37,533 bases of DNA from Polyangium fumosum (lineage in GTDB: Bacteria > Myxococcota_A > Polyangia > Polyangiales > Polyangiaceae). This document shows, in pieces, positions 11,788-17,741 of this stretch. Made by a program: the position numbers and the translations under genes. The stretch is from NCBI RefSeq assembly GCF_005144585.1, contig NZ_SSMQ01000096.1:1-37533 (forward strand). The letters are read 5' to 3'. The notes under the pieces are model-generated. The model did not search any database and was not told where the DNA came from. It saw only the letters and a list, made by a program, of their open reading frames with translations. The first letter of the stretch is position 1, and each line of letters begins with the position of its first letter.

Positions 11788-12618
11788 ATGGGTCCAGCGA
11801 TGTTGACGATCCTCGATGGACCGATGGGAACGGAGCTCGCCGCGCGGGGCGTCCCCACGCCCGCGCCGCTCTGGAGTGCGCTCGCGCTCGACCACGCGCC
11901 CGAGGTCGTGTCGGCGATCCACCACGAATACGCGGCCGCGGGCGCGACCGTGCACACGGCAAACACGTTCCGAACCAAGCGGAGAAGCGCGGGCGCGCGC
12001 TGGGAGGTGCTCGCGCGGAGGGCGGTCGCGCTCGCGCGTGAAGCCGTGCCGGCGGGGCATCGGATCGCGGGGAGCGTGGCGCCGCTCGAAGATTGTTATC
12101 GACCGGATCTCTCCCCGACGAACCCCCGGCCGGAGCACCGCGAGCTTTGCGAGGTGCTCGCGGACGCGGGGGTGGATTTGATCCTTTGCGAGACGTTTCC
12201 GCACGTGGGCGAGGCGCTCGTGGCGGTGGAGGAGGCCGTGCGGACGGGTTTGCCCGTATGGGCGGCGTTCACCGCGGGCCCGGACGCGGATCTGCTGACG
12301 CCGGCGGAGGTCCTCGCGGGCGCGCGGGAGGCTGCGGCGCGGGGGGCGAGCGCCGTGTTGATCAATTGCACGAAGGCGACACGGACGCGGACGTTCGTGG
12401 AAAAACTCGCGCAGGCGGGAATTCCATTCGGTGTTTATGCCAATGCGGGCGCCGTGGAGGAGGGCATGGGCTGGGGAATGACCACGCGCGGGGCGGATCT
12501 TTATGCGGATCTGGCGGAGGCCTGGATCCAGGCGGGGGCGACGATCGTGGGCGGATGCTGCGGGACGGGCCCGCTCCACGTGCGGGCGATCGTCGAGCGC
12601 GCGCGCGGAGTTCGTTGA
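11788..12618 (+). CDS. Homocysteine S-methyltransferase family protein
   Basis: A 276-residue (beta/alpha)8-barrel enzyme that transfers a methyl group to homocysteine, typically from S-methylmethionine or S-adenosylmethionine, in the MmuM-like group. Evidence: LDGPMGTELAARG at about residues 9-21, NTFRTKR near 59-65, the first zinc cysteine in LINCTKAT (Cys194), and the paired zinc cysteines in GGCCGT (Cys257, Cys258). All three Zn ligands are present, so it should be active. The start at ATG 11788 is conventional; an in-frame ATG 12 bases later would also work. The length is slightly shorter than classic MmuM (about 310), so the methyl donor is uncertain. Its 3' end meets the promoter-like part of a decayed DUF2330 copy. 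Confidence 0.9.
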   Translation: MGPAMLTILDGPMGTELAARGVPTPAPLWSALALDHAPEVVSAIHHEYAAAGATVHTANTFRTKRRSAGARWEVLARRAVALAREAVPAGHRIAGSVAPLEDCYRPDLSPTNPRPEHRELCEVLADAGVDLILCETFPHVGEALVAVEEAVRTGLPVWAAFTAGPDADLLTPAEVLAGAREAAARGASAVLINCTKATRTRTFVEKLAQAGIPFGVYANAGAVEEGMGWGMTTRGADLYADLAEAWIQAGATIVGGCCGTGPLHVRAIVERARGVR

Positions 12619-12850
12619 TGTTCGGAAACCTTGGGGGTCGTACCATCGTGCAGGCGCCCGCGTGCAGGACGGGCGCGACGAGAAATGGGAGGGACAAGCT
12701 GAGAGCACGAAGGCAATGAGGGGCCACGTAGGCGCGCCTCCGATGGGTGCAGCTCAGTCGCAGGACCGGGCGTCGAGCTTGTTCGGGGCGCTCGCGCTCC
12801 TCGGCGGCGCCGCGCTCGTGACCGCCGCGCGTCGCCGCCTTCGTCGCTGA
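12614..12850 (+). pseudogene. Rearranged remnant of a DUF2330 gene
   Basis: This stretch carries three pieces related to the intact DUF2330 gene at 14284-15621. First, 12614-12650 resembles its upstream region (GTTGATG, TTCGG, then TCGTA-C/G-CATCG and AGGCG at matching spacing). Second, 12652-12716 resembles its signal-peptide coding part but in the opposite orientation: the minus strand encodes LRALSLSLPFLVAPVLHAGA, close to LRALVLSLPFLAAPVLHAGD. Third, 12770-12853 matches its C-terminal hydrophobic tail and stop in the forward orientation, with about ten mismatches over 84 positions by eye. Nearly all of the body of the protein is missing. A small translated product from the tail alone is possible but unlikely. 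Confidence 0.65.
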
Positions 12851-12859
12851 CGGACGCCG

Positions 12860-14095
12860 TCAAACCCGTTCGAGGATCGTGGCGATGCCCTGGCCGCCGC
12901 CGATGCACAAGGTGACGAGCGCGGTCTGCGCGTTGCGGCGCTCGAGCTCGTCGAGCGCGGTGCCGAGCAGCATCGCGCCCGTCGCGCCGAGCGGGTGGCC
13001 GAGCGCGATCGAGCCGCCGTTGACGTTCACCCGATCCGGGTCGATCCCGAGCGCGCGCGTCGTTTGCAGCACGACGCCCGCGAAGGCCTCGTTGATCTCC
13101 CACAGGTCGATGTCACGCGCGTCCATCCCCGCGGCGCGCAGCGCTTTCAGGCTCGCGGGCGCCGGCCCCGTGAGCATGAGCAAGGGCTCGGTCCCGACGC
13201 TCGCCATCGCGAGGATCCGAGCGCGCGGCTTGACGCCTTTCTCCTTCACGTACCGCTCCGACGCGAGCACCACCGCGGCCGCGCCGTCGACGATGCCGCT
13301 CGAATTGCCGGCCGTGTGGACGTGCCGGATCTCCTTCGCGTGCGGGTACGCCGCGAGCGCGATCTGATCGAGCGTCTCGCCGTTCGGGCCGGCCGGCGCG
13401 CTCCCGAGCGCGACGAACGCGGGCTCGAGCGCGGCGAGCCCCTCGGCTGTCGTGTTCGGCCGCGGGAACTCGTCCTTCGCGAGCAGCGCCGCGCCCGTCG
13501 CGGGATCCGTCACGGGGATGAGCGAGCGCGCGAAGCGCTTCTCCTCGATGGCGCGCGCCGCGTTCTTCTGCGAGCGCAGCGCCACGCCGTCGATCTCCTC
13601 GCGCGTAAACCCTTGCAGCGTGGCGATCAGGTCGGCGCTGATGCCTTGCGGCACCTGGAACACGCGCTTGCGGAGCTGCGTGTTGCCGCCGTCCTGCCCG
13701 CCGCCGTCGGAGCCCATGGGGACACGCGACATGCTCTCCACGCCGCCGGCGACGACGAGGTCCATCGCGCCCGAGCCGACCGCCATGGCGCCGAAGTTGA
13801 CCGCCTGGAGACCCGAGGCGCAGAAGCGGTTGAGCGAGACGCCTGGTATCTCGTCAGGCCACCCCGCCGCGAGCACCGCGTTGCGGGCGAGGTTCGCGCC
13901 TTGCTCGCCGACCTGCGAGACGATGCCCGCCATCACGTCCTCCACCTCGCGCGGATCGAAGCCCACGCGCTGCGGGAGCGCCCGGAGCACCTGCGCGAAG
14001 AGCTCCTGCGGGTGGACGCTCGTCAGCGCCCCCTTCCCCAGCTTGCCCCGACCTCGCGGCGTCCGTGCAGCGTCGATGATGTAGCTCGTGCCCAT
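12860..14095 (-). CDS. Thiolase (acetyl-CoA acyltransferase family)
   Basis: A 411-residue thiolase. It catalyses CoA-dependent cleavage of 3-ketoacyl-CoA in beta-oxidation or the reverse condensation of acyl-CoAs. The nucleophilic Cys is in [11 protein letters not shown] (Cys92). The other catalytic residues lie in GHPLGATGA (His367) and CIGGGQG (Cys397). [12 protein letters not shown] is the usual loop after the first half-domain. Length is normal. The start at ATG 14095 is preceded by an AAGGGAG ribosome-binding site. A TTGACA -35 and a palindromic operator matching the one in front of the TetR gene at 15687 lie directly upstream, which suggests control by that TetR protein. The degradative and biosynthetic types cannot be separated by eye; the C-terminal and loop motifs favour FadA/FadI-like beta-oxidation. 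Confidence 0.94.
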
Positions 14096-14113
14096 GATGA
14101 TCGCTCCCTTCGT

Positions 14114-14153
14114 ATGACCTTCATCATATGATGATCATCATGCGACCTGTCAA
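14114..14153 (-). promoter_or_regulatory. Thiolase promoter with TetR-type operator
   Basis: On the minus strand a TTGACA (plus-strand 14148-14153) is followed by palindromic AT-rich DNA at 14114-14141, about 20 bases upstream of the thiolase ATG. On the plus strand, 14114-14127 reads ATGACCTTCATCAT, which differs at one position from the half-site ATGACATTCATCAT of the TetR-gene operator. The other half, 14128-14141, is the perfect palindrome ATGATGATCATCAT. The operator covers the spacer and -10 region, a position expected for repression. Confidence 0.7.
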
Positions 14154-14188
14154 GCGGGGGGGCTCCTGGGAGAGCGAGACGACATTCG

Positions 14189-14220
14189 TTGATGCTTCGG
14201 CCCGCCGAGGCTCGTAGCAT
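14189..14220 (+). promoter_or_regulatory. Tentative promoter element of the DUF2330 gene
   Basis: TTGATG and TAGCAT separated by 20 bases, about 64 bases upstream of the DUF2330 start. The spacing is long for a sigma-70 promoter. The main support is that the same two blocks at the same distance (12615-12620 and 12641-12646) survive in the decayed copy. Confidence 0.35.
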
Positions 14221-14283
14221 CGCGGAGGCGCGCTGCCATCGACGGCGCGCCGACGTGGATCCTCTTGCCTTGGAGATATCGCG

Positions 14284-15621
14284 ATGAAGCTCCTTCGTGC
14301 TCTCGTCTTGTCCCTCCCGTTCCTCGCCGCGCCCGTCCTGCACGCGGGGGATACGCAGGCGTGCGGCGGCTGCATCGTCAGCCAGTCCGAGTCCACGCAG
14401 GTCACCGGACACCGGATGATCCTGTCGATCTCGCAGCAGCAGACGACCCTCTGGGATCAGATCACCTACGCCGGCGACCCCTCGTCGTTCGCGTGGGTGC
14501 TGCCGATCAAGGGGCAGGTGGAGGTCGGGCTCTCGTCGGACGCGCTCTTCTCGACGCTCGAGGAGAGCACACGGGTGCAGATCAACTCGCCCACCATCGA
14601 TTGCTCGTTCTGCGGCTCGAACGGCCAGGGCGGCGCGGGCGGCACGGGCGGCGCGAACAACGGCGGCGGCGGCGTCGTCATCATCGCCGAGGAGGTCGTG
14701 GGGCCTTACGCCACCGTGCAGCTCTCCTCGCAGGACCCGAACGCGCTCGCCACCTGGCTCACGACGAACGGCTACAACGTCCCAGCCGATATCCAGCCGG
14801 TCATCGACACGTACGTACAAGAGGGGTTCAACTTCCTCGCGCTCAAGCTCGTGCCCGGGCAAGGGATCGACTCGATGCGCCCCGTGCGCGTCACCTCTGA
14901 CGGCGCGTCGCTCTCGCTGCCGCTGCGCATGGTGGCCGCGGGGACGGGCGCGAAGACGCCGATCAACTTGTGGGTCCTCGGCGAGGGTCGGTACGAGCCG
15001 AAGAACTTCCCGCACTTCGTGATCAAGCAAGCGGATCTCGTGTGGAACTGGGACACGCAGTCGAGCAACTACAAGGAGCTGCGGCAAAACGCGTTCGACG
15101 CATCCGGCGGCAAGGCGTGGCTGATCGAGGCGAGCGAGTCGTTCTCGTCGTTCTACTTGGAGGAGGGTCTCCTCTATCTGGCCGAGAACAATCCCTCGGA
15201 GAGCGGGTATGGCGGGGAGCCCGGAGGGCCGACCGCGCTCGAGGAGTGCCAGGCCGACCTCGACAAACTCTACGGTTCGATCCCCAAGGCGAGCCAGTGG
15301 GTGACCCGGATGAGCGCCGAGCTCACGCGCCCGGCGCTCGCGGCCGATCTCGTCGTCGGCGCGGCGGCCGATCAGTCGACGGTCGCGCGCTTCCTGACCG
15401 TCAACAAGTCGGTGGGCACGGCGCCCAGTTGCCCGTGCGGCCCGATCGGCGAAGGAGGCGGGGGGGCCATGGGCGGAGCGAACGGCGGGAACGGCGGGAA
15501 CGGCGCCTCGGACAGCGGCGGCGGATGCGCCGTCGGCGGGGCGTCGAGCCTGCCCGGGGCGCTCACGCTCTTCGGCGGCGCGGCGCTCGTGTCCGCCCTG
15601 CGTCGCCGCCGTCGTCGCTGA
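14284..15621 (+). CDS. DUF2330 surface protein with MYXO-CTERM-like tail
   Basis: A 445-residue exported protein of the DUF2330 family, known from myxobacteria and some other bacteria, with no established function. It has a signal peptide (residues 1-23, ending in LHAG). The family start is clear: CGGC near residues 27-30, TGHRMILSI, then FAWVLPIKGQVEV and LFSTLEE. A Gly/Asn-rich insertion occurs around residues 115-133. The region about 370-410 has a Cys-Pro-Cys motif and a Gly/Asn linker. The C-terminus has Cys, a hydrophobic helix and seven Arg residues, matching a MYXO-CTERM surface anchor. It is divergent from the thiolase and upstream of the TetR gene. A partly deleted, partly inverted copy lies on the other side of the thiolase gene. 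Confidence 0.88.
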   Translation: MKLLRALVLSLPFLAAPVLHAGDTQACGGCIVSQSESTQVTGHRMILSISQQQTTLWDQITYAGDPSSFAWVLPIKGQVEVGLSSDALFSTLEESTRVQINSPTIDCSFCGSNGQGGAGGTGGANNGGGGVVIIAEEVVGPYATVQLSSQDPNALATWLTTNGYNVPADIQPVIDTYVQEGFNFLALKLVPGQGIDSMRPVRVTSDGASLSLPLRMVAAGTGAKTPINLWVLGEGRYEPKNFPHFVIKQADLVWNWDTQSSNYKELRQNAFDASGGKAWLIEASESFSSFYLEEGLLYLAENNPSESGYGGEPGGPTALEECQADLDKLYGSIPKASQWVTRMSAELTRPALAADLVVGAAADQSTVARFLTVNKSVGTAPSCPCGPIGEGGGGAMGGANGGNGGNGASDSGGGCAVGGASSLPGALTLFGGAALVSALRRRRRR

Positions 15622-15651
15622 CGGCCGCTCGCTCGTTTGCTGCCCACCGAG

Positions 15652-15684
15652 TTGACATGATGAATGTCATATGACATTCATCAT
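15652..15684 (+). promoter_or_regulatory. Autoregulatory operator of the TetR gene
   Basis: A perfect 28-base palindrome at 15657-15684 consists of ATGATGAATGTCAT joined to its exact reverse complement, ATGACATTCATCAT. A TTGACA overlaps its left edge (15652-15657), and its right edge is 2 bases before the TetR ATG at 15687. Binding there would block transcription initiation. It stands out sharply as AT-rich DNA in a GC-rich genome and is nearly repeated before the thiolase. Confidence 0.8.
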
Positions 15685-15686
15685 GC

Positions 15687-16304
15687 ATGAAGAAGGAGCC
15701 CCTCTCCAAGGCCGAGCGCTGGGAGCGCACGCATGAAACGCTGCGGCTCACGGCCGCGCGCCTCTTGCGCACGCGAGGCCTGCGGCTGCCGTCGGTGGCC
15801 GACGTCATGAAGGGCGCGAAGCTGACGGTCGGCGGCTTTTACGGGCACTGGGAGAGCAAGGAGGCGCTCTTCGAAGAGGCCCTGCGCGACGCGCTGCGGA
15901 GCAACTGGTCCGCGCTCGTGCAAGAGGCGCGCGGGGAGACGGCGAAGGAGCGGCTCACGTGGATCCTGCGCCGTTACCTCTCCCGCTCGCACCGCGATAA
16001 CCCCGAGGCCGGCTGCCCGCTGCCTTCCTCGCTCAGCGACATCTCCGTGCTCGGCGCGCCGTACCAGAAGGCGTTCGCCGAGGAGGTCGAGCACCTCGCC
16101 GCGGAGCTCGGCGAGATCGCCGGGCCGATCGGGGGCAAGCAGCTCGTTCTCGGGCTCTTCGCCTTGATGGTCGGCGGCCTGAGCTTGGCCCGCGCCACGG
16201 AGGGGACGCCGCTCTCGGACTCCATTCTCGCGGCGAGCCGCGCGCTCGCCTACGCCGCCCTCGATCGCGCCGAGCAAAAAGCCTCGGAGAAGGACGAACC
16301 ATGA
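15687..16304 (+). CDS. TetR/AcrR-family transcriptional regulator
   Basis: A 205-residue TetR-family protein: an N-terminal helix-turn-helix at about residues 20-65 (RLTAARLLRTRGL, then SVADVMKGAKLTVGGFYGHW and SKEALFEEAL) and a ligand-binding helical C-terminal domain. Such proteins repress by binding palindromic operators and let go when a small ligand binds. Its own start sits 2 bases after a perfect palindrome, so it very likely represses itself. The same half-site occurs in the thiolase promoter 1.5 kb away. Its stop overlaps the next gene's start (ATGA at 16301-16304), a thioesterase, so the likely ligand is an acyl-CoA or related compound; that is inference from context. Length is typical. 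Confidence 0.93.
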   Translation: MKKEPLSKAERWERTHETLRLTAARLLRTRGLRLPSVADVMKGAKLTVGGFYGHWESKEALFEEALRDALRSNWSALVQEARGETAKERLTWILRRYLSRSHRDNPEAGCPLPSSLSDISVLGAPYQKAFAEEVEHLAAELGEIAGPIGGKQLVLGLFALMVGGLSLARATEGTPLSDSILAASRALAYAALDRAEQKASEKDEP

Positions 16305-16753
16305 CGACGACCGAAGAGACCCCCTGGTTGAAGAAGATGCGCGCGATCCTGAAAGGCGCCGAGCCGCCGCCGATCGCCAAGCTGATCGGCTTCGAGCTCG
16401 TCGACGTCGGCCCCGGCTCCGCGATCTTCACGCTGGTCGGTGATCCGAGCCGTCACGCGAATCCGATGGGCACGATGCACGGCGGCGTGCTGGTCGATCT
16501 CGGCGACGCCGCGATGGGCTTCGCCATGGCGAGCACGCTCGGCGAGGGCGAGAGCTTCACGACGGTGGAGCTCAAAGCAAATTATTTCAAACCCGTATGG
16601 ACAGCGCGCCTGCGCGCCGAGGCGCGGATGGTGAAGCGGTCGCGATCGCTCGGGTATATCGAGTGCGATATCGTGGACGAGGAGAAAGCGCTGGTGTGCA
16701 AGCTCGGCAGCACGTGCATGGTGCTGCGCGGCGAAGCGGCGGCCGGTCGCTGA
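16301..16753 (+). CDS. PaaI-type hot-dog thioesterase
   Basis: A 150-residue acyl-CoA thioesterase of the PaaI/YdiI hot-dog group. Signature HGGVLVDLGDAAMGFA at residues 60-75, with His60-Gly-Gly and the catalytic acid Asp67 as expected. Other strands are SFTTVELKANYFKP and SLGYIECDIVDEEKALVC. The cytoplasmic enzyme would release free acids from aromatic or medium-chain acyl-CoAs, and so protect the CoA pool. It overlaps the TetR gene by four bases and shares its transcript, so it should be controlled by that repressor together with the thiolase. The N-terminal 25 residues form a charged extension. Substrate specificity cannot be read from the sequence. Confidence 0.9.
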   Translation: MTTTEETPWLKKMRAILKGAEPPPIAKLIGFELVDVGPGSAIFTLVGDPSRHANPMGTMHGGVLVDLGDAAMGFAMASTLGEGESFTTVELKANYFKPVWTARLRAEARMVKRSRSLGYIECDIVDEEKALVCKLGSTCMVLRGEAAAGR

Positions 16754-16781: not shown

Positions 16782-17741
16782 TCATTCGCATCCGATGCGG
16801 GTCTTGGCGAGGGCCACGTCGTCGAACCACAGGTTCATTTCCTGCCCGGCATAACTCTCCCAGCCGAGCTTCAGGTCCGTGAGCTTCGGCTTCCAGCCCG
16901 GCTTCTGCGTGAGCCATTGTTGATCGACGTCGGGCGTCGGCGTCCCGTCGATGACGAGGCCCGCGACGTCGGTCCCGTCGACCCAGGTGCGGATCGCGCC
17001 CGCAGCGCCGTCGACCTGGAACTCGATGCAGCGCCATTGGTTCGCCGTGAGCGGGACGCTCATCCCGATGCCGGTGGGGCTGAGCGAGGGCAAGGTGGCG
17101 TCATCGGATTCGCGGTTCCACATGAGGATCTTGCTCTGGCCGCCCATGCGGAGATCCTTGTTGTTGTCGTTCGTGTCCCGCATCGTCATGAACGTCGTGT
17201 GGCCGTCGCCCTGCGCGGCCGACATGCGCACGTAGAAGCGGCCATAAAAGACGTCGCCGAGCTCCGCGAACGCCGCAGTGTGAGAAAGGAAGATGTGATC
17301 GCAATAGGTGCCCTTGCCCGTCACGAGCACCGAGTTCTTGCCGCTGTGCGCCTGGGTCGAGTCGACGGCGAGCGTGCCCGCGCCCATGCAGTTCGGGCTG
17401 ACGACCGCCCAGCGCGCGGGATCGGGCGCTTGGCCGGCCGTCGCGGCCTCGAAATCGTCACAAAGGGGCAAACCCGTGCAATGGAAGGCGCTGCCGCCCG
17501 CGCCGCCCGCGCCGCCGGTGCCGCCCATTCCGCCCATTCCGCCCGATCCGCCGCTCGCGGAGCTCGAGCTCGACGCGGACATCCCCCCCGCCCCGCCCTG
17601 CCCTCCGCCGCCGGCCTGACCGCCGCTGCCGCCCTGACCACCGCTGCCGCCGGCTACGCCTTCGCCCTCGTCGCAGGCGACCAGCGGGATGGCGAGGACG
17701 AGGGAGAGAAACACGTGAGGAAGCATCGTTCGTAGGTTCAT
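16782..17741 (-). CDS. Lipoprotein with Cip1/polysaccharide-lyase-like sandwich
   Basis: A 319-residue lipoprotein: signal peptide with lipobox LVAC (Cys23), then a Gly/Ser-rich linker to about residue 88. A beta-sandwich follows with the pattern CDDFEAA near the start, the paired strands VFYGRFYVRMS and TFMTMRD, and a final block WRCIEFQVDG, WVDG, LGWESY and LWFDDVALAKTRIGC. This end block is typical of the Cip1-like core and related polysaccharide-lyase jelly rolls that bind or cut plant or microbial glycans. No catalytic residues can be assigned by eye. Surface attachment through lipid is likely. It is divergent from the kinase at 17843, which may share regulation through the 101-base gap. 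Confidence 0.82.
   Translation of the reverse strand: MNLRTMLPHVFLSLVLAIPLVACDEGEGVAGGSGGQGGSGGQAGGGGQGGAGGMSASSSSSASGGSGGMGGMGGTGGAGGAGGSAFHCTGLPLCDDFEAATAGQAPDPARWAVVSPNCMGAGTLAVDSTQAHSGKNSVLVTGKGTYCDHIFLSHTAAFAELGDVFYGRFYVRMSAAQGDGHTTFMTMRDTNDNNKDLRMGGQSKILMWNRESDDATLPSLSPTGIGMSVPLTANQWRCIEFQVDGAAGAIRTWVDGTDVAGLVIDGTPTPDVDQQWLTQKPGWKPKLTDLKLGWESYAGQEMNLWFDDVALAKTRIGCE

Follow-up and report, generated by a model that had tools for sequence, protein, structure and literature searches.

A candidate 28-bp operator shared by a TetR-family regulator gene and a FadA-type thiolase gene in Polyangium fumosum

In the soil myxobacterium Polyangium fumosum, a gene for a TetR-family regulator starts beside a long palindrome, and a similar sequence precedes a thiolase gene on the opposite strand. 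Does one regulator act on both genes through a common site, and if so, which molecule would it sense? These questions were approached by computational analysis of a DNA stretch of 37,533 nucleotides (the window), of the whole host genome, and of related genomes from the same genus and family. A sequence-only reading of the window had proposed a shared operator for the regulator and the thiolase. Our comparisons agree with this proposal, and we assign a probability of roughly 85% to the prediction that the two genes share an operator and are locally controlled by this TetR protein. The features of the locus are collected in Table 1.

Table 1. Features of the regulator-thiolase locus, in window coordinates
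Feature	Position	Strand	Remarks
FadA-type thiolase gene	12860-14095	-	411 aa
Candidate thiolase-side operator	14114-14141		full 28-bp site, two abutting 14-bp dyads
TTGACA, -35-like element of thiolase promoter	14153-14148	-	six bases before the thiolase site
DUF2330 / MYXO-CTERM protein gene	14284-15621	+	between both operators, outside the conserved unit
TTGACA, -35-like element of TetR promoter	15652-15657	+	overlaps first two bases of the 30-mer
Candidate TetR-side operator, perfect 30-bp palindrome CATGATGAATGTCATATGACATTCATCATG	15656-15685		28-bp pattern inside, 15657-15684
TetR-family regulator gene	15687-16304	+	205 aa, one cysteine (C110)
Hotdog-fold thioesterase gene	16301-16753	+	150 aa, 4-base overlap with TetR gene

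The site at the regulator gene had been described as a perfect 28-base palindrome that abuts the start codon. The palindrome is indeed perfect, but it is 30 bp long and one base separates its end from the ATG. Its arm measures 15 bases, whereas 100 first-order Markov simulations of the window gave no arm longer than 13 bases, a length reached once. The thiolase promoter carries ATGACCTTCATCAT at 14114-14127, one mismatch away from the TetR-side half-site, followed directly by ATGATGATCATCAT, a perfect 14-bp palindrome at 14128-14141. Both elements had been noticed before, as a half-site with one mismatch and another palindrome, but jointly they make up a second full 28-bp site. The layout common to the two sites is ATGA-N6-TCAT followed immediately by a second ATGA-N6-TCAT, each unit being 14 bp in length.

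Plain identity between the two sites is 19 of 28 positions, only slightly more than the 17 of 28 reached by the highest-scoring unrelated stretch of the window, at 17185. The pattern ATGA-N6-TCATATGA-N6-TCAT, with 16 fixed positions, matches the window exactly twice, and 100 shuffled sequences gave a mean of 0.00 matches at up to three mismatches. A third window match, with three mismatches, lies at 14100 and overlaps the thiolase site. It is this 28-bp pattern, rather than plain identity, that separates the thiolase and TetR sites from the background. The half-site gives a similar picture, with five window matches at up to three mismatches, every one within the two operators, where 0.43 would be expected. 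The pattern was built on the two window sites, which makes it circular to count their matches as evidence, and independent support comes from relatives only. A TTGACA element adjoins both operators, as the sequence-only reading had noted, and is found at 10 of 10 promoters when the corresponding sites of five genomes are included. The promoter scan found no consensus sigma-70 promoter at either gene, and its two terminator-like matches fall away from the operators.

In the 12,979,202 bases of the whole host genome, the exact 28-bp pattern occurs in these two places only, and the backward control occurs nowhere. Allowing up to two mismatches adds one site (C179:102481-102508; positions 1501-1528 of L003), which keeps 15 of 16 fixed positions and ends at the ATG of a gene coding for an SDR oxidoreductase of 255 amino acids. 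No score above cut-off was obtained for this protein among the best 25 models. The same place in G077 keeps 14 of 16 positions, and in G086 nothing there resembles the operator. The SDR match in G056 starts at residue 36 and an operator was not found at that place, and the SDR was not found in G093 or G014 at E 1e-40. From these sequence comparisons, the SDR gene is a likely third target, with a weaker site than those of the TetR and thiolase genes.

A pattern of three half-sites, with at most one mismatch, gave one exact match besides the three known sites (C137:16550, L078) and one-mismatch extras on C118, C119, and C138 (L084, L085, and L086, respectively). L084 and L085 were rejected as operators on account of their positions inside predicted genes. 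L078, which overlaps an ATG and carries no second dyad, and L086, roughly 100 bases upstream of a predicted gene, were not counted, and may nevertheless be real sites. A separate search with a relaxed pattern added one match, on C66, which has a GATATC centre and one mismatch and was taken as chance.

The two exact sites had also been thought to mark a single regulon for acyl-CoA breakdown, and this broader claim is overstated. The only extra site within two mismatches is that of the SDR gene, and the seven matches to 3-hydroxyacyl-CoA dehydrogenase (3HCDH), five of them strong, all lie on other contigs, where no operator site was found within two mismatches. With three sites in the genome at this threshold, which would miss weaker ones, control of a beta-oxidation gene set of the FadR type was not found. 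As predicted from sequence, the regulon is small, comprising the regulator, the thioesterase, the thiolase, and probably the SDR.

Close relatives of the TetR protein (92-99% identity) are encoded in four of the five other genomes of the genus (G056, G077, G086, and G093). Each of these four genomes has exactly two sites at one mismatch or fewer, located at the TetR and thiolase genes, and all eight sites fit the window-derived pattern exactly. G056 is nearly identical to the window genome (99% TetR identity) and adds little independence. Across all ten sites from the five genomes, none of the 12 positions outside the pattern is identical throughout. In the remaining genus genome, G014, neither a site nor a thiolase (at E 1e-60) was found, and the one TetR match is weak and partial. 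Joint absence of this kind would be expected of a regulator, an operator, and a target that form one unit.

Spacing to the start codons is kept as well, with two bases between site and ATG at the TetR gene in all five genomes and 17-18 bases at the thiolase gene. One or two bases separate the TetR operator from the ATG, and no ribosome site is visible there in any of the five, which suggests that the predicted TetR mRNA might be leaderless.

The thiolase and TetR genes of G056, G086, and G093 are directly divergent, and the 135-166 bp between them hold both sites. A DUF2330 gene, which the sequence-only reading did not mention, separates the two genes in the window and also in G077, where it is a partial frame; in both cases each site stays beside its own gene. 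Because the sites remain with their genes despite this intervening gene, each most likely acts on its own promoter. Required looping between the sites was considered and rejected, as the distances between site starts (88, 102, 118, 1043, and 1543 bp in the five genomes) show no fixed spacing. Downstream of the thiolase gene, at 12611-12860, the window also holds the remnant of a second DUF2330 gene, which is complete at this place in G056 (L038). The remnant lacks its middle and consists of four blocks, two in inverted orientation, that are 87-91% identical to the G056 DUF2330 region.

These arrangements are consistent with a model in which a local, autoregulating TetR repressor would control its own operon, consisting of the regulator and thioesterase genes, and would also control the separately transcribed thiolase gene through the second copy of the 28-bp operator. 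The third, weaker copy would probably bring the distant SDR gene under the same control. Since the operator consists of two abutting dyads whose ATGA/TCAT half-sites are ten bases apart, or one helical turn, two TetR dimers would most likely bind side by side, one per 14-bp unit. Positioned at TTGACA or immediately downstream of it, the sites occupy DNA that RNA polymerase needs, and bound repressor would therefore keep the polymerase off both promoters. A small effector would then release the repressor from both.

The TetR and thioesterase genes overlap by a shared ATGA, in agreement with the coupling that had been proposed for them. The assignment of the thioesterase to the PaaI type was less fortunate, as the protein scores 38.7 bits against the PaaI equivalog TIGR02286 (cut-off 118.9) and 66.5 bits against the general hotdog thioesterase model TIGR00369 (cut-off 36.6). 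The thiolase scores 562.8 bits against NF006090 (PRK08242; curated cut-off 514), and its best solved relatives are 3svk and the mycobacterial FadA Rv0859. It carries the motifs CASG (92), NEAF (335), GHPLG (366), and CIGGG (397), which presumably have catalytic roles. Our leading candidate for the effector, held tentatively, is an acyl compound handled by these enzymes, either a CoA thioester or a free acid. Some other small molecule is an alternative candidate.

The regulator itself scores 35.9 bits against the TetR helix-turn-helix family (PF00440; cut-off 24), and its structural model is all-helical, with TetR folds as best matches. No Pfam family matched its C-terminal part. The closest solved relative both by sequence (E 9.9e-26) and by structure (Z 15.0) is 2fd5, a Pseudomonas aeruginosa protein that we take to be the product of PA3133. 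The two proteins share LTVGGFY and HRD..GCPLP. In the accessible portion of the literature naming PA3133 together with TetR, no operator, target, or effector was found for it. Among 18 aligned relatives of the window regulator, the DNA-reading segment LTVGGFY and a segment RD....GC are invariant, the former in line with the kept operator. Below 2fd5, structure comparison places PA2196, NemR, EilR, QacR, CifR, and Sulfolobus FadR within 2 Z units of one another. Foldseek ranks NemR 16th, and DesT and Thermus FadR with acyl-CoA 37th and 42nd; Bacillus FadR does not appear among the matches listed, which carries no weight either way. An assignment of the effector class from the fold was rejected, the candidates being too close in Z to tell apart.

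The same circuit could instead have Cys110 as its sensor, by analogy with NemR, and respond to a thiol-reactive electrophile or an oxidant. C110 is the regulator's sole cysteine, is invariant in the 18 relatives, and aligns with the GC cysteine of Escherichia coli NemR (Cys106 by our count), a protein with one of the best scores in the structure comparison (Z 13.5). That cysteine suffices for the bleach response of NemR, according to the accessible part of the report (PMC3739934), and the TetR repressors AltR and DitR are likewise described, in the sections available, as being released through cysteines (PMC13178969, PMC9342713). The resemblance to NemR may extend to an autoregulated operon with the regulator gene first. 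However, the targets here are acyl-CoA enzymes rather than reductases or glyoxalase, and the 28-bp double dyad of the operator is a further difference from NemR, AltR, and DitR. The GC pair is shared by further TetR proteins (3qbm and 3eup, for example) and may be structural, and a shared fold shows no function. We consider an electrophile or oxidant a less likely effector than an acyl compound, though a serious candidate. More doubtful is the wider conjecture that a subfamily of single-cysteine, NemR-like TetR repressors in these myxobacteria, with the 28-bp double dyad as operator, senses reactive lipids or electrophiles and couples this signal to a dedicated FadA-type thiolase, a thioesterase, an SDR, and, in another genus, alpha/beta hydrolases. 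If true, it would constitute a disposal circuit for damaged lipids that is separate from fatty-acid-responsive control of beta-oxidation.

Returning to the operator, its palindromic form is long enough for two dimers, as in QacR, whose operator is reportedly bound in this way. The difference is that two 14-bp dyads abut here, and the predicted stoichiometry is drawn from their arrangement. For an acyl-responsive circuit, the nearest described system is FadR of Sulfolobus acidocaldarius, a TetR-family repressor of fatty acid metabolism with four genomic sites, for which binding, release by acyl-CoA, and targets have been measured, as far as the available part of the source goes (PMC6449355). 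The two systems have in common the TetR family and fold (6en8, Z 11.9), few genomic sites, and thiolases among nearby genes, and the one operator of FadR is bound by two dimers, as given in the same portion of that source. In contrast, the system described here has two or three predicted sites, and its lipid genes are the thiolase and thioesterase only. The acyl-CoA function is also described in the accessible text as convergent between TetR lineages (PMC6449355), and it is consequently not transferable from Sulfolobus FadR to the present regulator.

In the wider family, the exact pattern was found at 13 sites in 7 of 108 genomes, and the backward control at none. All 13 sites adjoin gene starts and a TetR of the same subfamily as the window regulator. 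Ten are the TetR/thiolase pairs of the five genus genomes. The other three belong to another genus (G098 and G100; L066, L067, and L068, each at 1501-1528) and abut the start of an alpha/beta-hydrolase-like gene, assigned by weak model matches, and the next gene codes for a TetR that is about 41% identical to the window TetR. A relaxed-pattern survey at one mismatch or fewer covered 21 sources, namely the window, the SDR locus, and the 19 TetR loci with the top TetR matches. Each of its 18 matches precedes a gene for a TetR, a thiolase, or an SDR, and 8 of the 19 TetR loci gave no match to this pattern. The upstream DNA of L050 and L051 has a clear variant with TTGAC and an AT-rich double dyad, and L042, L047, L049, and L055 have partial forms of the operator. 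L053 has a partial match 171 bases upstream, and in L056 the contig end cuts the upstream region.

The regulator's neighbours at these 19 loci include a thiolase at 10 and a thioesterase at 7. At L048:4626-5397, L049:6315-8656, and L054:3093-4567, relatives of the TetR gene stand beside SDR genes, and the promoters there carry TTGAC and AT-rich palindromes. Small local switches of this sort may therefore be more widespread. Matches to the thiolase at E 1e-150 numbered 54 in 52 of the 108 genomes, and 30 of these 54 loci were examined. Among the 20 thiolases with at least 71% identity, 11 carry, within 160 bp, a site that keeps 10-12 of 12 positions, three lie just downstream of a TetR gene, one has 8 of 12, and five have no site. 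None of the 10 thiolases with 66-69% identity has a site, the best reaching 7 of 12 at most.

The recurrence of near-identical sites with relatives in other genera could also mean that the operator is characteristic of the whole family, and that a different TetR reads the thiolase site. Some genomes indeed carry many paralogues, with 11 matches in G020 and 14 in G059. The thiolase genes of G032, G059, and G079 have a site, although more than 4 Mb separate each of them from the best TetR match. In G059 and G079, weaker TetR paralogues are found closer to the thiolase, at about 40-50 kb, and the partner regulator there may be either the distant best match or the nearer paralogue. In the window genome, however, the only full-length match is this TetR itself, the two others being weak and confined to residues 16-86 and 22-68, and thiolase, TetR, and sites are missing together in G014. 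A separate regulator for the thiolase therefore appears very improbable.

AT-rich palindromes occur generally in mobile-element ends and hairpins, but a reading of the palindromes as such structural DNA, or as chance, is scarcely credible when every exact site in the 108 genomes stands next to a gene start and beside this TetR subfamily, when the palindrome length was never reached in 100 simulated windows, and when the terminator-like matches lie elsewhere.

Control of both genes by this TetR protein through a common operator is thus the reading that we prefer. A gene switch of this sort is of an ordinary, known kind. What the analysis adds is a precise, testable candidate operator for a TetR subfamily for which, in the portion of the literature covered, no described operator was found, together with a regulator-thiolase link that recurs across genera. 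Identifying the effector would reveal how a thiolase is regulated in these bacteria separately from the remainder of beta-oxidation. In addition, with only two exact sites in a 13-Mb genome, the regulator and its operator would make a clean switch for myxobacterial work.
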